From assembly GCA_002731275.1 (NCBI GenBank), contig PCBK01000189.1, positions 148,249 through 212,248 of the forward strand: DNA of 64,000 nt, given 5' to 3'. The notes below the pieces were generated by a model. That model had not been told where the DNA came from. It worked only from the letters and a program-made list of their open reading frames with translations, and ran no database searches. Below are positions 55,450-64,000 of this stretch, in pieces (the first letter of the stretch is position 1; each line of letters opens with the position of its first letter). Both the position numbers and the translations under genes were made by a program. The stretch comes from Deltaproteobacteria bacterium. Its GTDB lineage: Bacteria > Myxococcota_C > UBA6777.

Positions 55450-58400
55450 TCACTGTTTCTTGCATAGCAAGGTGACATTGCCTGTCATGTGGGACAGTTC
55501 GTCTTCAAGGCGTCGGACAACAAATCCCCTCGCCTCCAGGAATACCTCGATCTCTTTGGCCGAACGAAAACGGATCTCCCCTTGTGCCTGATTAAAACCA
55601 AAGAATGTCGAAAAACGCTCCGTCCAGCCGTTCACTTTGTCGTGACCAGTGTCGGGATCTGTGTCACGCAAGATAAACAGCCCTCCAGGCCTGACAGCGG
55701 CAATCGCGCGACGTAAGATCTCGTCCTGAAGCTCTCGCTCCCAATAGTGAAGGATGTCGATCAACATCACGACGTCATACGTCTCCTCTGACGTCCACGA
55801 GCGCAGATCGCGCCGCGCAAATGAGAGCGCCTCAACGTCATTGGCGCTCGCCTGTGCGACCTCGATCTTCCCGGCATCATAATCCACTCCAAAGATCGTA
55901 CGTTCTCGCCGCCGCAGGTGTAAATAATGTGCCAGAAAACCATACCCACACCCCAAATCGAGGATCGAACATGCCTTCGGTATATAGGGTTCGATGAACG
56001 TTGGAAATGGATCGATTCGCAGCTTCCAATACGCGTACTGTTCGACATACGGACCGATATACGCATATTGTCGAAGCACCTCTAAGCGCGAAACTGCCGG
56101 CAACCAACGTACAAATTCTTGTGATACATCTTCGTACGTCTCTTTGATCACAGCCTGGACGTGCTTGCGTAGTTTTCTGTGAGAGCTGTATACCTCCTGC
56201 TCATCAGCCGTTATCCGCGGACCAATCTGTGCGATAAATGAGAACTCTCCGACCCGGACTGTTCCCCGACGAAAACATGAGCGCGTGTTGTAAAACACCA
56301 CAGGTAGAATATCCGCCCCAGTCTCCACAGCCAGACGAAACGCTCCAGAATGAAATCGACCGATGTCACCGTAGAGAGAACGTGTCCCTTCAGGAAAAAT
56401 CATGATCGAGCTTGACGCATCGAGCGCTTCTTTTGCGTGCTGTATAACATCTGCAGGGTCACCATCTTCTGGCGAATCAGGTACGAGGATCATCTCGGAC
56501 AATCGCACAAGTGGGCCCATCACGGGCATATCCCAGACCCATCTCTTGACCACCATCCTCAAATCATAAGACAACCGCAGCGCCATAGGGATATCAGCCA
56601 TCGACTGATGGTTGGCGACGAGAATTGCAGGCTTCTCCGGCGATGTATCAAGCTCAATCCACCGCCGTCGTCCGGACGGAAAGTACACGATCAGCAAATC
56701 GGAGACCATCCGCATCAACCCGCGCAGCCTCTTGGGGACGCCCGGAAACAACTTGTGAGCAAGCCACAACAGGGGCAACGCGAAAAAACTCAGCAGCAAC
56801 CAACCAAAAAACCAACCCAACCCCACAAGACTTACGACCCATCTCTTGAAGCTCATCGGACCACCGATCTTGCCCTTTTTTACGACAAAACGCGTGAGCA
56901 TTGGCGTGAGCATCATCGTGGCGCACAACACAGAGACGATCCCGATCAACGCAACGACCCCTACGGAGTAGAGCAGAGGGTGTCGCGCAAAGACCAACGT
57001 TCCCATTCCGAAGATCGTCGTCATCGCAGAGATCAATACAGAGGTCATCGCGTTCTCGACCTCCTGCTCGCCGGTGTAAAGATCGTGGATACTCTGCTTC
57101 ATAAAGAACAGACTGAAATCCACACCAAGCCCCAGCACAAAGATCGACACGACGACATTCAGGAGGTTAAACGAGATCCCCAACCACCCCATCAACCCCA
57201 GTGTCCACAAAAAAGCGAGCAGCAACGGCACGATCGTCGCGAAGACCAGATCGAGATGAAGGCAGCCCAAAAAAACGACAAGGCACACGACGAAGAGCGC
57301 GACCCAGGCGATCACACGAACATCTCGCTGCACCCATGACATGACGTGTTCGACGAGCTGACGGCTCGATAACACAGAAGCATCGGGATACTCTTGTCGA
57401 ATCAACGTCGAGAGCTGAGACGCCGACGTCCCTTCATATGGGCGAATCAATGTCAAAATGTAAAACGCGCCGGCTTCTCGTTGGACACGTTCGGAGAGAA
57501 AGAGTTTTCCGAGGCGAGACGACGCCCGAATAGAAGGCATTGAGACCGTCGAAGCTTTGATATCCGAGAGAACAGGTGCGAAGGTGTTTGGGTGAAAACC
57601 ATACTTCTTGGACGCCTTTGCGAAGGCCTCCTGTAAAGACTTCAAACGCGCCTTGGACCAAAAGCGCCTCCAACGCTTCATTCGGCGTGAGCGCGTATCC
57701 TGAGATGGCCACAGTGGCGCAATCGAGGAAAACCACTTCAACTTTTTTTGTGCTTGAAGACGCTGAAGATGTCGATATACCAAGTCGTTGGCGAACAACG
57801 CCTCCTGTAAGCTGTCCCCCTTCACGACGACTTGCATACTCCCTCTGGGATCGCCCCACACACGACGGAATCGTGCCTCCGCACGCTTTGTATCTGCAGC
57901 GAGCGCCTGCAGCGCGTACACATCCCCTTCAAACCCCACACGTGAGAGCCCCCAGAGTGAGCCAAGAGTGAGGACAAACACAACGCCCCAGATCCAGGTG
58001 GCGTGGGAATCACGCCATCTCGTCAGCTTGTGAGCAAAGGACTTGACGGAGACAAAAGGTAGACGCTCGGCTTTCCCGATACGTTCGAGCAGTGGGGGGA
58101 GCAGAAACAACGTAAAAAAGAGCGCAGCCCCCAGGCTTAAAGCAGCAAAAACACCGACTGTATGTTGCGCACGAAACTCGGCAAAGAGCAAGCAGCCGAA
58201 TGCCGCCATGCTCGTCAGTGCCGCAAGGAGCAAGATCGGCAAGAGTCGCCTGACGAGCACTTTTACGGAGCCTTCGTGTTGTTCAAAGTGTACGCACAAG
58301 TGGATCCCATAGTCGACGGCGATCCCGAGCAGGATCGAACCAAAGGCGAGCGGGATAGCGGACATCTGCTGTTTCCAAAGACCGAGCAAGGCGACCGCGA

Positions 58401-59316
58401 CGACACCACCAAAGACAGGAGGAAGGAGCGCGACAAATAACAGCAGAGGTTGTCGAAAGACGAGCAAAAACAAAAGCACGATCGCAAACAAAGAGAGCGA
58501 AACCGTCAACGCAACGTCCCGCTTGATCTGGCTGCTGTTGTCGTGTGTCCCTCGGTGCCCACCAATCGAGTCGATCGAGACATCAGGATGCACCCTCTTC
58601 GCATCAGCGAAAATGCCGGACAGCTGTTTGAGGAAAGAACCAAGCGCAGCCGTTCGGGTCGTGTCCACAGTCGGTTCAGCGAGTATAAGCAGGTGCCTTT
58701 TGTCCTTGGAGAACCAGTAACCGAGATGAGGATGGATAGAGAAGCCTGCACCGAGCGCTTTGAGCTTTGTGGTGAGGGCTTTACGCCACTGAAAAGGATC
58801 ACGGAGGAGCTGTCTCTTGACCATCAAGCCAGAGGGGAGTCGTAGCTGTTGGAGTACACCTGCGACGGCATGCTCAGCCATTTGGTCGGCTGATTGAGCT
58901 GACCACTCTGTTAGCTGTGTACCTGTAAATAGAACGGCACGTTGTCGCCAAAGTTCTCGCTGAAGCGCGAGCGCATCGGTCATCTCGACGCGGTACATGA
59001 CCCGCTGAAAGACGTTACTTTGCTTGAGAGCTGTTGCGAGTCGATCGGCGACGTTGATCAACGATTGGGGTTTTGCTGGCTGTGAGGAGGGAGTGCGTAG
59101 ATGGATCAACAACCGCTTCATCACGCGAAAACGTCGGAGGGTATCCTTTACATCGGTCAACACAGGATCGTGTTGAGGGAGCATCGAGAGCAGATCTTCG
59201 CGAAACTCAATGCGTGAGACCCCCCATATAGACACCCCAAGCATACACAAGACAAAGACCACCCGCCACCCAAGACGCATCCTCGAATTCGTCGCTGCTT
59301 GTGCTGTTTTGCTCAT
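55450..59316 (-). CDS. RND/MMPL exporter fused to acyltransferase and methyltransferase
   Basis: 1288 residues from the ATG at 59316 (GGAGG 6 bases upstream), which overlaps the upstream stop in ATGA. Residues 1-840: MMPL-type RND exporter with two sets of about six helices and GLGVDFSLFFMKQ and GIAVDYGIHL, typical of HAE3/MMPL transporters. Residues about 870-1080: lysophosphatidate-type acyltransferase with NHQSMADI (NHxxxxD) and FPEGTRS. Residues about 1130-1288: SAM methyltransferase with ILDLGCGYGFLAHYL. All three activities occur as separate genes in aryl-polyene and related lipid clusters; here they are one chain. No stop or frameshift interrupts the joins. Confidence 0.92.
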   Translation of the reverse strand: MSKTAQAATNSRMRLGWRVVFVLCMLGVSIWGVSRIEFREDLLSMLPQHDPVLTDVKDTLRRFRVMKRLLIHLRTPSSQPAKPQSLINVADRLATALKQSNVFQRVMYRVEMTDALALQRELWRQRAVLFTGTQLTEWSAQSADQMAEHAVAGVLQQLRLPSGLMVKRQLLRDPFQWRKALTTKLKALGAGFSIHPHLGYWFSKDKRHLLILAEPTVDTTRTAALGSFLKQLSGIFADAKRVHPDVSIDSIGGHRGTHDNSSQIKRDVALTVSLSLFAIVLLFLLVFRQPLLLFVALLPPVFGGVVAVALLGLWKQQMSAIPLAFGSILLGIAVDYGIHLCVHFEQHEGSVKVLVRRLLPILLLAALTSMAAFGCLLFAEFRAQHTVGVFAALSLGAALFFTLFLLPPLLERIGKAERLPFVSVKSFAHKLTRWRDSHATWIWGVVFVLTLGSLWGLSRVGFEGDVYALQALAADTKRAEARFRRVWGDPRGSMQVVVKGDSLQEALFANDLVYRHLQRLQAQKKLKWFSSIAPLWPSQDTRSRRMKRWRRFWSKARLKSLQEAFAKASKKYGFHPNTFAPVLSDIKASTVSMPSIRASSRLGKLFLSERVQREAGAFYILTLIRPYEGTSASQLSTLIRQEYPDASVLSSRQLVEHVMSWVQRDVRVIAWVALFVVCLVVFLGCLHLDLVFATIVPLLLAFLWTLGLMGWLGISFNLLNVVVSIFVLGLGVDFSLFFMKQSIHDLYTGEQEVENAMTSVLISAMTTIFGMGTLVFARHPLLYSVGVVALIGIVSVLCATMMLTPMLTRFVVKKGKIGGPMSFKRWVVSLVGLGWFFGWLLLSFFALPLLWLAHKLFPGVPKRLRGLMRMVSDLLIVYFPSGRRRWIELDTSPEKPAILVANHQSMADIPMALRLSYDLRMVVKRWVWDMPVMGPLVRLSEMILVPDSPEDGDPADVIQHAKEALDASSSIMIFPEGTRSLYGDIGRFHSGAFRLAVETGADILPVVFYNTRSCFRRGTVRVGEFSFIAQIGPRITADEQEVYSSHRKLRKHVQAVIKETYEDVSQEFVRWLPAVSRLEVLRQYAYIGPYVEQYAYWKLRIDPFPTFIEPYIPKACSILDLGCGYGFLAHYLHLRRRERTIFGVDYDAGKIEVAQASANDVEALSFARRDLRSWTSEETYDVVMLIDILHYWERELQDEILRRAIAAVRPGGLFILRDTDPDTGHDKVNGWTERFSTFFGFNQAQGEIRFRSAKEIEVFLEARGFVVRRLEDELSHMTGNVTLLCKKQ

Positions 59317-60755
59317 GCACGACCTCCAGCATCTTCTGTGCTGGTCTTGCGGATAAACTGCATGAGAATATAGGATGAGAGGCCGAGTAACAAACCGACA
59401 AGGACGGCGAGGAGCATACTTCCAAGTAACCAGGGGACGACTTTTGCGCTGGCAAATGCCCATATAGACGACCAAGTTGAAAAGTCTCCCAACCACGCAC
59501 CTGTCGTCTGCCCTGTCAGCAAAAAGTGTCCAATCCACAGCGAAGCCATCGTGATCGGGATAGGCATGGGACCAAAAGAGATGTTGCTTGCGGCGAGCAC
59601 GACGATCTTGTTCATCTTGAAGATGTGCGCGAGGTAGGCGGCGACGAGCATCTGGTAGCCCCAAATGGGAACGATCCCCATAAACGCACCGAATCCGACG
59701 GCGACGGCGAGCTCTGCGTTAGATTGCTTTGCGCTCTCCACCTCTCCACGCCAAAAAGCGAGCATCTTTTGATGAAATGTCAACTCTTGTTGAGGTGCAA
59801 AGCGCAGCTTCACCTTCTTTTTGGGCAGTGGAGAGAGTAAGCGAAAGAACAGGAAGGAGTTGAGCAAGCTGATACGCAAAAAATCACGGATGGTCCGAAA
59901 GTGAGAGATACGTTCTTCCTTGGGTGGGTAGTAGACATCGATTGGGACGGCTCTCAGTGGGATACCTGCCCAAGCAGAACGTACGAGAACTTCAACTTCA
60001 AACTCGTAGCGCCCTGTACGACACTGAAGCGCGAGGATATGGGGCACGGGATAGGCCCTGAATCCGCTCTGTGAATCGGGAAGTGGTCGCCCGGCGATCA
60101 CACGTAGCCAAAAGTTGGAGAAGCCTCGTCCAAAGCGGCTCTTCCAGGTAATATTTTGATTCTTCCCAAAATGTCGGCTCCCCACGATAAGCGCGTCGGG
60201 TTCTTGTCGTATCTTATCGAGGAAAGTTGGGATGTCATCGGGATCATGTTGTCCATCGGAGTCGATCGTAATGGCGACGTCCCAACCGAGCTCGTGAGCA
60301 CGTTTGAAGCCAGCCATCAACGCACCACCTTTCCCCTGATTGGACGAGAGGCGTATGACTTCAACACCGATCTCTTCAGCATGTGCTTCGAGCAAGGTTG
60401 CCGTCTGATCCGTCGAACCATCGTCTACAACGATCACATCATCAAGGTAACGCTTTGCACCACGCAAGACATCGAGCAGAGTGCCACCGTGATTGTATGT
60501 CGGCACAAGGACACCCACACGAACGTCGTGTTCAATGGGCTCTTGGATAGGAGCTGTAGACTCTACGCCTTCGACGCTTGAAGGGTTTGTACCTTCACCT
60601 TGTTTCTGTGCATGTTCAACCGTGGCTCTTTTGTTTGCGGTCTCTCGCAAAACGCTCTCCTCTATCGATAGAGATGGGATACATTGGCTCTTCCCAACAT
60701 AAGGCCGTCGGAGCCAAAAAAGAATGGGGGAAATGAGACGTACACAAGAGGGCAT
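59313..60755 (-). CDS. glycosyltransferase family 2 with DUF2062 domain
   Basis: 480 residues. GT-A fold at about 75-300: VLVPTYNHGGTL, DVIVVDDGSTD and the DSDGQHDPDD metal-binding DxD region; the sequence resembles polyisoprenyl-phosphate sugar transferases. Residues 320-465 are the membrane-embedded DUF2062 domain (VAVGFGAFMGIVPIWGYQ, four helices). The fusion GT2-DUF2062 is characteristic of aryl-polyene-type clusters. The ATG at 60755 lacks a good ribosome site, so the true start could be further in; the first 70 residues are variable. Stop overlaps the next start by 4 bases, so translation is coupled. Confidence 0.87.
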   Translation of the reverse strand: MPSCVRLISPILFWLRRPYVGKSQCIPSLSIEESVLRETANKRATVEHAQKQGEGTNPSSVEGVESTAPIQEPIEHDVRVGVLVPTYNHGGTLLDVLRGAKRYLDDVIVVDDGSTDQTATLLEAHAEEIGVEVIRLSSNQGKGGALMAGFKRAHELGWDVAITIDSDGQHDPDDIPTFLDKIRQEPDALIVGSRHFGKNQNITWKSRFGRGFSNFWLRVIAGRPLPDSQSGFRAYPVPHILALQCRTGRYEFEVEVLVRSAWAGIPLRAVPIDVYYPPKEERISHFRTIRDFLRISLLNSFLFFRLLSPLPKKKVKLRFAPQQELTFHQKMLAFWRGEVESAKQSNAELAVAVGFGAFMGIVPIWGYQMLVAAYLAHIFKMNKIVVLAASNISFGPMPIPITMASLWIGHFLLTGQTTGAWLGDFSTWSSIWAFASAKVVPWLLGSMLLAVLVGLLLGLSSYILMQFIRKTSTEDAGGRA

Positions 60756-60876
60756 ACTAGGCCGCGATGTGGAAAATGTCGACCTTTTTTAAAGATACAT
60801 TCCCCCCTGCCGTCTTTCTCAACGTTGTCCACCTTCTTTGAAGTCAACAATTGGGGTTGCGAATTGTCCGTAACTG

Positions 60877-60892
60877 TTCTATTCTCATAGAA
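60877..60892. promoter_or_regulatory. TTCTAT-TCTC-ATAGAA inverted repeat
   Basis: A perfect 6-bp dyad in the 191-base divergent region between the glycosyltransferase gene and the gene at 60947, 55 bases before that ATG. Candidate operator; weak evidence. Confidence 0.3.
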
Positions 60893-60946
60893 TCATGCTG
60901 ACATCATCTGTCACCCTTGTAGTGCTTGCATCTTGGAGCGTTTTTC

Positions 60947-62059
60947 ATGATTTGGAAGAAATTGTGTTGTGTTATGATCTTTGTCTCGACATATGTGTCG
61001 TATTCACCGACCTCATACGCCCAAGAGCAGTGGAAGACCAACCACTATATCAACATGGCGCGAGAGGCACTTGCGCTCGGTGAGACCAAAAAGTGGGAGA
61101 ACGCCTTACGGCAGGCAGAGCGAACATTTGAGGCTGAGAAAGGTCGCATGAACTTCTCAGAACGCAACAACTTCAAGCTCTGGTTGTCTCTCTTTTGGTC
61201 CAAATACCACCAATTTAAAGGGACTCCCCCTGCGGTCAAAAACGTTCGTCAGTTTGAAAATCTCTCCACTTTCTCTGCCTACATCAAAAAGCTAGAGAAG
61301 AGCATCGCACACCTGCAAAAAGGGATGAAGCACATCAAATCCTACAACTTGATGTATATGCAGATCGCGCAGCGTTCGAACTTTCAGCAGCAAATCTACC
61401 TACAAGCATCGCTCAGCCAAGAGCGCGACCTCGAAGGTCAGATACGCTCAAACAAGATCTATCTCGCCTTTCTCAAGTACGCACTCGCCGACAAACAGGG
61501 GAAAGCCAAGACACAAAAGCGCATCAAGTTGACAGACAAACAGCTACAGCAGCTCAAGCAACAGGCGAGAAAAGCACGTGAGCGCTATACTGCGCTCAAA
61601 GAAGGACAAGACAAGCTCGGCAAAAAGATCGCCCAGGCACAGACCAAGTTCTCGGCGCTTCAAAAGAGCATCAACGGACGCGCCGCGACCTCCGCAGTCC
61701 TCACTTGGACAGGTGTCGCCATGGCAGTGATCGGCGCTGGAGGGGTGGGGGTTGGGATCTACTTCATCATCGAAGGCAACAATACAGCGTACAACGCTGC
61801 TCAGCGTCAACAATACTCGGACATTGGCCTCTACACCACCATCGGCGCTGGTGGTGGGTTTGTCCTTGGACTGACGACCATGTTGATTGGGATCGCGACA
61901 AGCCCTGGCAAAAAAGTTCGAGAGCGCGCGGTCATCGACTCACACAATGTCCACCTCGACACCCCCAAATCGATCAGCCTCTTTCGCCCAACCCCCTCTC
62001 ACCTTCACAGGCACCTCCCCCCACACAGCCCAAACACACAGACCTTCGGCTCTTGGTAA
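60947..62059 (+). CDS. exported coiled-coil protein with two membrane helices, unknown function
   Basis: 370 residues from the ATG at 60947, with TTGGAG 9 bases upstream; an earlier TTG at 60926 precedes it. Signal peptide to about SYA-QEQ near residue 25. Residues 30-250 are helical, Lys/Gln-rich, with a coiled coil at about 185-245 (KLTDKQLQQLKQQARKARER). Two Gly-rich membrane helices at about 255-275 (VLTWTGVAMAVIGAGGVGVG) and 300-320 (IGAGGGFVLGLTTMLIGI), and a Pro/His-rich end. Layout resembles PEGA/TPR envelope proteins of myxobacteria, but I see neither domain. Unrecognised. Confidence 0.75.
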   Translation: MIWKKLCCVMIFVSTYVSYSPTSYAQEQWKTNHYINMAREALALGETKKWENALRQAERTFEAEKGRMNFSERNNFKLWLSLFWSKYHQFKGTPPAVKNVRQFENLSTFSAYIKKLEKSIAHLQKGMKHIKSYNLMYMQIAQRSNFQQQIYLQASLSQERDLEGQIRSNKIYLAFLKYALADKQGKAKTQKRIKLTDKQLQQLKQQARKARERYTALKEGQDKLGKKIAQAQTKFSALQKSINGRAATSAVLTWTGVAMAVIGAGGVGVGIYFIIEGNNTAYNAAQRQQYSDIGLYTTIGAGGGFVLGLTTMLIGIATSPGKKVRERAVIDSHNVHLDTPKSISLFRPTPSHLHRHLPPHSPNTQTFGSW

Positions 62060-62212
62060 GCGTTTGGCGCCCCACAGCTCTATTCTGGCACACTCTCGCG
62101 ATCATTTGGACGTATTTTCGTCGCGATTAGATACAATCGTTGACTTCTTGCGTTTAAACCTGAAAGATATCCTGGGAAGCACGCAAACCCACAAACAAAG
62201 GAAGTCGAAATC

Positions 62213-63028
62213 ATGAACACGCTCTTCAGACTCGTGAATACGCTCTTTTTGCTTATTTGTGTAAGCAGTTTGGCCCTCGCAGACGTCGCACCACCAAAGA
62301 TCATACAAAAGCCACAACGTCCACTTCTTCTCCAAAAAAGAACGCCTGTCAAACACAAAATCCGTGCATTCAAGAGTGCCAAACTTACCTTAAAGAGTCG
62401 TGCACTGCGCGTTCACAAACAGACCGTTTCCTTTCATCCCGATGCGAGACGACGCAAGCGTCGTTACAAGGTCTACCACTTTCGTAAACAAGCCTTCTTC
62501 AAACGCTTCTCCTCTCTGAAGGCCGCTGATGGTCAAACGATCAAGGTGATCATCCAACACACACGCACCAAGCGGGCACAGATCCCAGTTGGCACCATTA
62601 CAACCATTCACCATCAATGTATGATTGTCCCCAAAAAGCCTGCATCCAAGCGCGCTATCCCCAAAGCATCCAAGCCAACGTTGTACATCCTCCCACAACA
62701 AAAATACAGACTGCTACGTGACAACGTTGTCGGAAAAATGGCGAGCCTTCCGATCGAGCAAGGTAAGGCGGTCACCTTTAAAGGCGCGCCTATGATGTCA
62801 TTTAACCTGATCTCACCATATCGTCGCAGTGCTGTGTATATGAAAGTCCTCCTCCCAAAGGCCGCGTATGACAAAACACGCAAGCAATCCCCCAAGGCGA
62901 GTGTGCTGTTGATCCAATTCACAAAAGTCCACAAACGCAGATATCAACCCCCTCGCGGCCTGCCCTCCCCCAGAGGTGGCTTCCTCCATGTAAAATATGT
63001 GGCAAATATCATCAAAGTTATCAAGTAA
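62213..63028 (+). CDS. exported basic protein, unknown function
   Basis: 271 residues; AAAGGAAG lies 8 bases before the ATG. Signal peptide LVNTLFLLICVSSLALA, cleavage before DVAPP. The mature protein is unusually basic throughout (for example KRTPVKHKIRAFKSAKL, PDARRRKRRYKVYHF) with one Cys and beta-like C-terminal segments. No family recognised. 153 bases after the coiled-coil gene, so it may share its transcript. Confidence 0.7.
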   Translation: MNTLFRLVNTLFLLICVSSLALADVAPPKIIQKPQRPLLLQKRTPVKHKIRAFKSAKLTLKSRALRVHKQTVSFHPDARRRKRRYKVYHFRKQAFFKRFSSLKAADGQTIKVIIQHTRTKRAQIPVGTITTIHHQCMIVPKKPASKRAIPKASKPTLYILPQQKYRLLRDNVVGKMASLPIEQGKAVTFKGAPMMSFNLISPYRRSAVYMKVLLPKAAYDKTRKQSPKASVLLIQFTKVHKRRYQPPRGLPSPRGGFLHVKYVANIIKVIK

Positions 63029-63188
63029 AATCAAACACCTGCCATTCTCCCTCAAAAAAAGTAAAGAAAAAGTGAACTCCTGTTGAACGCCAGCCGTAGA
63101 CACATACAGAACGAGAGAGAACACTCAAACAATCACAGTCAAGAGACTCTCTTTTCTTTTGTATTCCAAGAAGTAACAGGATAAAACA

Positions 63189-63305
63189 ATGACGAGCGTA
63201 TCATATCACTCCACAACAAACACCTCCCCCGCTTTCACTTCCGTGAACACCAAGGGTCGTGCTCGTCGTAAACGTCGCCTCAAACGGAGACGTAGAAAAC
63301 AGTAA
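63189..63305 (+). CDS. 38-residue Arg/Lys-rich ORF, leader peptide or tiny basic protein
   Basis: ATG at 63189 with CAGGA 7 bases upstream; stop TAA at 63303-63305. The first 21 residues are Ser/Thr-rich (MTSVSYHSTTNTSPAF), the last 17 are KGRARRKRRLKRRRRKQ, with ten Arg/Lys codons in the final 13. It is below usual annotation size. The last base of the stop codon is the first base of a hairpin that competes with a terminator (63305-63374), the layout of an amino-acid attenuator leader. The alternative is a small ribosome-associated basic protein such as bacterial COX24-like peptides followed by its own terminator; the N-terminal half does not match those. Confidence 0.6.
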   Translation: MTSVSYHSTTNTSPAFTSVNTKGRARRKRRLKRRRRKQ

Positions 63306-63354
63306 GACGGTATCCAATTCCATCCACACAACGTGATGAGAACTGATACCGTCT
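63305..63354 (+). promoter_or_regulatory. antiterminator-like hairpin, mutually exclusive with the terminator
   Basis: AGACGGTATC at 63305-63314 pairs perfectly (10 bp) with GATACCGTCT at 63345-63354. The last six bases of the 3' arm are also the 5' arm of the terminator stem, so both cannot form together. A ribosome ending on the 38-residue ORF would cover the 5' arm and favour termination; one stalled in the Arg/Lys codons would leave it free and favour readthrough. Confidence 0.6.
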
Positions 63355-63374
63355 GAGACCCAGACGGTTTTTTT
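63348..63374 (+). terminator. Rho-independent terminator
   Basis: Stem ACCGTCTG (63348-63355) with CAGACGGT (63361-63368), 5-base loop, then seven T in total (63368-63374), the first of which pairs in the stem. The strongest intrinsic terminator in the window. Confidence 0.85.
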
Positions 63375-63788
63375 GTATCCAATCCCCAAACATAAAACAT
63401 AACATATGAGTTGCTTCGGCGGACATCACACAGAGGCTAAAACCTCGGACAAGTGAACAGTTTGTTTTTATTTGTCTATCCTTTGTGACATCCAATGATT
63501 GACTTCAGTCGGAATATTCTCCGCGCCTCCAAATGTGGAAGGATGCCTGATAGCCTTGTCTTCGGGCGCAGCGAAGACAAGCGAGCTGCACGTCATAAAG
63601 CAACGTTCTGCTACGGCGGACATCGTACTTGAGGTCAGAATAAGCGCCCTATACGGGTTGATTCGTCTGCTCATTTGCGACATCCACATCGACGAACCTT
63701 ATCTCCATCCCTTTGGAGAGTAAAAGGATGATTACGCCGATGCACCAGAGCAACCAACGCAACTCATATATCATATTACTCTGATTTC
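63375..63788 (+). other. intergenic leader between terminator and tRNA array
   Basis: 414 bases without a supported gene. A 10-bp hairpin CTTGTCTTCG/CGAAGACAAG (63555-63564 and 63572-63581, 7-base loop) is followed by no T-run. A 15-base direct repeat GCT(T/A)CGGCGGACATC occurs near 63413 and 63610. AT-rich CATATATCATATTAC just before the first tRNA may be its -10 region. Confidence 0.5.
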
Positions 63789-63860
63789 GGGTCCGTAACT
63801 CAACGGCAGAGTACCTGGCTTTTAACCAGGGAGTTGTGGGTTCAAATCCCACCGGGCCTA
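63789..63860 (+). tRNA. tRNA-Lys(TTT), copy 1
   Basis: 72 bases without encoded CCA. Acceptor GGGTCCG/CGGGCCT with G-T at the terminal pair and T-G at the fourth; D stem ACTC/GAGT with a 7-base loop; anticodon stem CCTGG/CCAGG around CTTTTAA, giving anticodon TTT; variable loop GAGTT; T stem GTGGG/CCCAC with TTCAAAT. All arms close. The weak terminal pair is unusual. Confidence 0.9.
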
Positions 63861-63871
63861 CTTACATTTCT

Positions 63872-63944
63872 GAGTCCGTGGCCGAATGGTTGAGGCACCA
63901 AACTTTTAATTTGGGTGATGTGGGTTCGAGTCCCACCGGGCTTA
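63872..63944 (+). tRNA. tRNA-Lys(TTT), diverged copy 2
   Basis: 73 bases without CCA. Acceptor GAGTCCG/CGGGCTT (same G-T and T-G pairs as copy 1); D stem GCC/GGC with a 10-base loop containing GGTT; anticodon stem CCAAA/TTTGG around CTTTTAA, anticodon TTT; T arm GTGGG-TTCGAGT-CCCAC. The T arm matches copy 1, the D arm and anticodon stem do not. The 11-base spacers before (CTTACATTTCT) and after (CTAACATTTCC) are near-identical, so the array grew by tandem duplication. Confidence 0.85.
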
Positions 63945-63955
63945 CTAACATTTCC

Positions 63956-64000
63956 GGGTCCGTAACTCAACGGCAGAGTACCTGGCTTTTAACCAGGGAG
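63956..64000 (+). tRNA. tRNA-Lys(TTT), copy 3, cut by the window end
   Basis: The 45 visible bases are identical to the first 45 bases of copy 1, through the anticodon arm. The remaining T arm and acceptor lie beyond the window, as may further copies. Confidence 0.85.

Follow-up and report, generated by a model that had tools for sequence, protein, structure and literature searches.

What purpose is served by a short open reading frame (ORF) that closes with a run of arginine and lysine codons, whose stop codon runs into a potential RNA switch, and which is followed by an array of tRNA genes? This question is raised by a locus at the end of a 64,000-nt stretch of DNA from a deltaproteobacterium, hereafter called the window. 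We consider it likely that this ORF encodes a leader peptide through which a Lys/Arg tRNA array is controlled by ribosome-mediated transcription attenuation, and that the locus belongs to a family of similar units, although no expression or ribosome data are available. The existence of the units, the matching of leader composition to array content, the geometry of the switch, its alternative pairing, and the redundancy of the tRNAs are shown below.

A probable leader ORF and switch ahead of a tRNA array

The features of the locus are collected in Table 1. The leader peptide ends in KGRARRKRRLKRRRRKQ, and with its Shine-Dalgarno sequence the ORF fulfills one expectation for an attenuator of this type, which is a translatable short ORF with a ribosome-binding site 5' of the controlled genes. 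The first-pass annotation had described a 38-codon ORF whose stop codon overlaps the 5' arm of a perfect 10-bp hairpin that excludes a T-tailed terminator, and this description held. Its count of ten Arg or Lys codons among the last thirteen was only partly correct, as there are 11. The tRNA-Lys array that it placed 414 bases downstream was confirmed, with the first tRNA at 63789 and with Arg tRNAs also included. Every Lys and Arg codon of the leader can be read by anticodons of this array.

The ORF matches no family in Pfam or NCBIfam. Searches for orthologues at the DNA and peptide levels returned only its own second copy along with low-complexity or short chance matches. There is no second genome of the same genus among those compared, and the window leader is left without an orthologue for comparison.

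Table 1. Coordinates of features at the locus (positions in the window)
Feature	Position	Strand	Remarks
Promoter-like site TGAACT-N16-CGTAG	63073-63099	+	ECF-sigma-like -35 GAAC and -10 CGTA
Shine-Dalgarno AGGA	63178-63181	+	Direct sequence reading; seven bases 5' of leader ATG
Leader ORF, 38 codons	63189-63305	+	Arg/Lys-rich C-terminal end; translation MTSVSYHSTTNTSPAFTSVNTKGRARRKRRLKRRRRKQ
Arm A, AGACGGTATC	63305-63314	+	Antiterminator 5' arm; starts on final base of stop codon
Small hairpin within A:B loop	63318-63342	+	Between stop codon and terminator
Arm B	63345-63354	+	Pairs with A (antiterminator), or 63348-63355 with C (terminator)
Intrinsic terminator, B:C stem and T-run	63348-63374	+	ACCGTCTG-AGACC-CAGACGGT-TTTTTT
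Spacer	63375-63788	+	414 nt, terminator to first tRNA
tRNA-Lys(UUU)	63789-63861	+	
tRNA-Lys(UUU) variant	63872-63945	+	Related to tRNA-Arg(UCU) of the array
Third tRNA-Lys	63956-64000	+	Truncated by contig end

Arms A and B form the perfect 10-bp inverted repeat (63305-63314 with 63345-63354). Arms A and C are near-copies of each other, and therefore pairing of B with one excludes pairing with the other. The minimum-energy fold of the segment is the A:B form (-25.5 kcal/mol, z -4.6), and its A:B pairing stands out against that of shuffled leader ends (p = 0.008). When the RNA is masked to 12 nt beyond the stop codon, as a mimic of a terminating ribosome, the predicted structure becomes the terminator fold.

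The array and its assembly

The window terminates within the tRNA array at the end of contig C178. Its last 60 nt overlap exactly with the start of another contig of the same genome (G000:C62), on which the array continues as Lys-Arg(GCG)-Arg(UCG) before the sequence leaves the array. So far as it has been assembled, the window array consists of Lys and Arg tRNAs only. Positions 56359-63906 were assembled twice, as these 7.5 kb are also present on G000:C193 at 99.97% identity, with divergence beginning inside the tRNA array. The variant array on that contig reads Lys-(interrupted tRNA)-Arg(GCG)-Arg(UCU)-Arg(GCG). Such double assembly may point to strain variation or to recombination in array content.

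The interruption on G000:C193 (L038) is an insert of ~150 nt, at about 287-448, that splits a tRNA in its anticodon region and has imperfect inverted ends (ATTGTTGGATGTC / GACATTCGGCAAT). Ends resembling these occur twice in the spacer of the window, at 63412-63494 and 63609-63686. The repeated spacer ends form two pairs, with CGGCGGACATC at 63412 and 63609 and GACATCCA at 63479 and 63671, and they could be traces of short insertions. The L038 insert and the similar ends in the window have the look of short mobile elements, an identification that remains tentative. The 414-nt spacer in its entirety has no second copy in the genomes of the phylum.

Farther upstream, the minus strand of the window (55450-60755) encodes a glycosyltransferase-DUF2062 protein and a 1404-amino-acid MMPL/acyltransferase/methyltransferase fusion. 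These genes resemble an aryl-polyene or flexirubin pigment operon, and the relatives of the fusion are mostly from Bacteroidota.

Equivalent units across the phylum

Clusters of tRNA genes were gathered from five genomes of the phylum (G000-G004). All five are drafts in many pieces, and some of the arrays were put together from the overlapping ends of contigs. The resulting set is large but, for the four relatives, incomplete. A fixed terminator pattern proved too strict for finding units. A uniform scan covered 77 tRNA clusters and called for a hairpin of -12 kcal/mol or lower beside T6, together with an ATG-started ORF ending nearby.

Sixteen of the 77 clusters carry an ORF and a hairpin/T6 unit, and 14 of these show the leader pattern. 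Two single-tRNA scan matches with weak hairpins (L118 and L156) appear to be spurious, and no qualifying hairpin at T6 was found at the remaining 61 clusters. At one locus (L163) the longest-ORF rule chose the wrong frame, and we used a different ORF there, the one that shows the standard spacing of 56 nt. Thirteen arrays besides that of the window are thus preceded by a leader ORF and a terminator, whereas the housekeeping tRNA operons of the five genomes lack a leader-terminator unit.

The correspondence between leader and array is often evident by eye. Six tRNA-Ser genes lie behind the leader MNMTTQHTNTLVTNCIVFMQTGSSLSSSSSSSSSSCATV, which has ten consecutive serines, and every Ser codon in it can be read by anticodons of its own array. 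An array of Gln-Glu-Pro-Thr-Asn-Gly-Pro-Thr-Cys-Gly-Leu-Leu-Arg follows the leader MTMYINIQPATPNTLGQQNTNGNGCGNGFTFPVCGCLCTPVVLPEGPEFGGLCERLREHGSGG, and the leader of a Cys-Arg-Trp-Arg array carries GRRWRRWCRRCCC. Upstream of Tyr-Lys-Ile-Ala-Ala-Val-Gly-Gly is a leader rich in those six amino acids, upstream of Phe-Gln-Leu-Met-Met one rich in Phe, Gln, Leu, and Met, and a leader rich in His, Asn, Asp, Pro, Glu, and Leu precedes an array of those six tRNA kinds. Near the end of contig C98, the composition of a leader rich in Ala, His, Val, Leu, and Thr agrees with the overlap between contigs C98 and C200. The distance from terminator to first tRNA in these other units is 8-152 nt, or 373 nt in the Ser unit, and the 414-nt gap of the window is atypical.

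One further cluster (L133, on G000:C160) has two tRNA-Tyr genes, seemingly after an interrupted third. The ORF upstream of it ends in SSYYPSYRKPKSYQG, and there is no T-run terminator. Conceivably this is a degenerate leader unit that lacks its T-run.

Most units share a promoter-like element, GAAC-N16/17-CGTA, a putative promoter similar to those recognized by ECF sigma factors. It is found 5' of 13 of the 14 leaders, with a variant form at the 14th, and in most cases lies about 83-129 nt 5' of the start codon. The strict form has eight distinct sites in the 10.75-Mb genome, four of them at leader arrays and the other four with no tRNAs close by. The notion that this promoter is specific to leader arrays was dropped because the element also occurs near some housekeeping tRNA operons. 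A separate cluster of some eleven CAU-anticodon tRNAs (tRNA-Met; L100, G000:C121:35682-36561) has GAAC-N16-CGTA on its 5' side, without a leader unit or terminator.

Leader composition follows array content

Leaders and arrays were compared by a score. For each array, this is the share of a leader that consists of amino acids carried by the array, expressed relative to the leader mean. In every one of the ten independent units, the leader devotes a larger fraction to its own set than other leaders do. Among these ten units the true pairing of leaders with arrays outscores every alternative assignment, and none of 500,000 permutations reached it. Substituting the other orthologue of each pair left this result unchanged. 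When the C98 and window arrays are limited to the contig of the leader itself, the pairing is still reached by none of 300,000 permutations, but it ceases to be the sole optimum. The match of the Lys-Asn-Arg-Met unit is weak when taken alone. As a group, the units satisfy the expectation that leader codons correspond to what the controlled genes make or need.

Matching residues are not spread evenly along the leaders. They are densest 7-18 codons 5' of the stop codon, where their fraction is 0.67-0.72 versus a background of 0.22. A ribosome stalled at this location would leave arm A free.

Geometry of the proposed switch

Each of the 11 units from genera g1 and g2 has 54-62 nt between its stop codon and the T-run, and arm A is located at -25 to +7 relative to the end of the stop codon. 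Complementarity of the stop region to B exceeds that of shuffled sequences (Fisher p = 5e-7 over eight independent units). The Ser, C98, and G001:C370 units, each considered by itself, show only weak A:B pairing. For the stage of transcription at which B but not yet C exists, the predicted pairing of B with the leader end has a mean probability of 0.64-0.90 in the ten other units. The window is excluded from these figures because automatic placement of B failed there. Most other units also have hairpins comparable to the small one between the stop codon and the terminator of the window.

A mutually exclusive antiterminator and intrinsic terminator are therefore present in the window and, when taken as a group, in the g1 and g2 units. 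This property is weak in three units and is not met in genus g3. Likewise, the stop codon in g1 and g2 units is placed to hide the 5' arm of the antiterminator when translation terminates and to leave it free upon stalling, whereas the g3 leaders (G002:C34 L066, G002:C200 L065, and G004:C63 L064) stop inside the terminator loop. Arm A was sought in the g3 units of G002 and G004 and was not found. If a ribosome at the stop codon blocks the hairpin, g3 geometry might predict a different or even opposite response.

Several predictions of the first-pass annotation can be evaluated by comparing units. It had argued that a lack of compensatory changes in the upstream stem would refute the switch. 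Such changes were found, not in orthologues of the window copy, but as covariation of arms A, B, and C between units: AGACGG/CCGTCT/AGACGG in the window corresponds to AGGTGG/CCACCT/AGGTGG in G003:C69, with GC or GU versions elsewhere. It had also held that conservation of the leader peptide sequence, together with abundant stable protein, would count against attenuation, and the sequence part of this was not borne out, as two of three divergent orthologous pairs are little conserved. These same-genus pairs share composition, with identical residues in only 26 of 86 and 18 of 93 aligned columns (19-30%); the third pair is more alike (22 of 69). Composition is kept in two of the three pairs while sequence is little kept, and thus the peptide itself is apparently not the target of selection. 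Codon content rather than peptide is probably what is conserved in the leaders, on the strength of these two pairs. For one leader pair, from G002 and G004, there is a synonymous excess (p = 0.0007). Finally, the link between switch and tRNAs, which the first-pass annotation had offered as inference, gains support from the Lys/Arg-only array and from the 13 further composition-matched units. Regulation itself is still inferred.

Array tRNAs form a second set

When compared with the housekeeping tRNA of like anticodon, most array tRNAs show just 45-67% identity. Exceptions are one Ser tRNA (72%) and two others (83-84%). Among themselves, array tRNAs are up to 97% alike. Each genome therefore possesses an auxiliary, diverged tRNA set that is split among several operons, whose control by leaders is likely and remains an inference.

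Arrays of tRNAs have previously been proposed as anti-defence devices (PMC12803027), and there is a tRNA-cleaving immune system that targets tRNA-Lys(UUU) (PMC12409363). One hallmark of anti-defence arrays, redundant tRNAs that are diverged from the housekeeping set, is present here. A role in rescue from tRNA cleavage is a reasonable guess for which there are no biochemical data. An unrelated oddity is a tRNA predicted by ARAGORN at G000:C5:45742-45815 (L117), whose UUA anticodon would read the UAA stop codon.

Proposed mechanism

We propose that transcription would start at the promoter near 63099 and that a ribosome would trail the polymerase through the leader. When all kinds of Lys- and Arg-tRNA encoded by the array are plentiful, the ribosome would reach the stop codon and cover A, leaving B to pair with C and ending transcription 5' of the tRNAs. 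When one of these kinds is scarce, the ribosome would stall in the Arg/Lys run and A would remain free. A:B would then form before C is synthesised, and polymerase would continue into the tRNA genes. Scarcity of a tRNA would in this way turn on genes for that tRNA. Because the array tRNAs are a second, strongly diverged set, such a feedback loop would replace exactly the missing tRNAs. In vivo translation of the leader, the stall, and the read-through are inferred from sequence alone, as is any shortage, which could come from limited charging or from tRNA-cleaving toxins.

A bolder reading is that the units constitute a phylum-wide system of tRNA replenishment, in which a diverged second set is distributed over several operons whose leaders test the supply codon by codon, possibly for rescue from tRNA-cleaving toxins or defences. 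We see no more reason to accept this extension than to reject it.

Alternative explanations

Several observations weigh against control by the attenuator. Genus g3 has another geometry, A:B is weak by itself in three units, and the arrays of eleven tRNA-Met and of two tRNA-Tyr genes have no unit. The terminator and the array are separated by ~370-420 nt in the window and in the Ser unit, and an internal promoter might be located in this gap.

More broadly, the ORF might be an ordinary gene for a small basic protein with its own terminator, followed by an independent tRNA array with its own promoter. The good Shine-Dalgarno sequence and terminator, the 414 nt to the first tRNA, and the lack of a leader orthologue for comparison are all compatible with this view. 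We judge it unlikely given that 13 other tRNA arrays have the same layout, with leader composition that tracks the array and usually 8-152 nt between terminator and tRNA. Moreover, the ORF matches no protein family, and two of the three divergent pairs of orthologous peptides show little conservation.

Alternatively, the response might have the opposite sign, such that a completed leader keeps the terminator open and arrays are made when tRNAs are plentiful, as in growth coupling. In its favor, the leaders of G002 and G004 end in the terminator loop, so that a ribosome terminating there would mask the 5' arm. This option is also improbable, since in the window and ten other units the stop codon is placed 54-62 nt before the T-run and the end of the leader resembles the 3' arm of the terminator, an arrangement in keeping with the classical sign.

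Ribosomes are known to be slowed by nascent chains of poly-Arg/Lys, and the leaders could be translated sensors that act by nascent-chain stalling (poly-basic or poly-Ser) or through Rho-dependent termination rather than by codon-specific stalling, but this is very unlikely because leader composition varies with the tRNAs, including mixed sequences without an obvious stalling motif, and because the terminators throughout the units are intrinsic.

Significance and comparison with known systems

If attenuation by tRNA supply is correct, the loop would be direct, because the quantity sensed (decoding of given codons) is also what the operon repairs. It would offer a possible reason for the divergent, redundant tRNA arrays of bacteria that are usually labelled as anti-defence or of unknown function. 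Leader composition could also be used to predict the content of an unassembled array, as the C98 leader and C200 overlap illustrate.

Mycobacterial plasmids and phages carry tRNA array units (PMC12803027), and phage tRNAs can counteract defences that cleave tRNAs, such as PARIS (PMC12409363). In both cases, as here, the tRNAs are clustered, redundant, and unlike the chromosomal set. The paper on the M. avium array mentions no leader or promoter (PMC12803027), and no leader units were seen before the tRNAs of a Myxococcus phage, a Pseudomonas phage, and one Acidiphilium plasmid cluster. The E. coli tyrT transcript holds a protamine-like, Arg-rich small ORF called Tpr. The resemblance lies in having a small, Arg-rich ORF on the transcript of tRNA genes, but Tpr is located 3' of the tRNAs and outside any attenuator. 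T-box riboswitches similarly sense tRNA status and control transcription termination, whereas sensing here would proceed through translation and not by direct tRNA binding. An Rfam scan of the window revealed only tRNAs and no T-box, and G000:C193 likewise lacks one.

Leader-peptide attenuation is not known to have tRNA genes as its output. The open-access literature, whose coverage is incomplete, yielded attenuators of biosynthesis and synthetase genes and none controlling tRNA genes. With this caveat, what is new is likely to be the target of ribosome-mediated attenuation, along with unusually broad leaders that match their arrays. The units resemble the trp, his, leu, ilv, and thr attenuators, which likewise combine a short ORF enriched in the amino acid under control with alternative antiterminator and terminator structures and a stop codon beside the 5' arm. 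They resemble in the same way the attenuators of aminoacyl-tRNA synthetase genes, such as E. coli pheST and the hisS paralogues of bacilli (PMC2965389). Usual attenuator targets, which are not strictly part of the definition, are genes for amino-acid biosynthesis and aminoacyl-tRNA synthetases, and here they are replaced by tRNA arrays. Unlike those attenuators, the units described here have leaders that can match up to nine amino acids simultaneously, and several units in one genome share out most amino acids among them.
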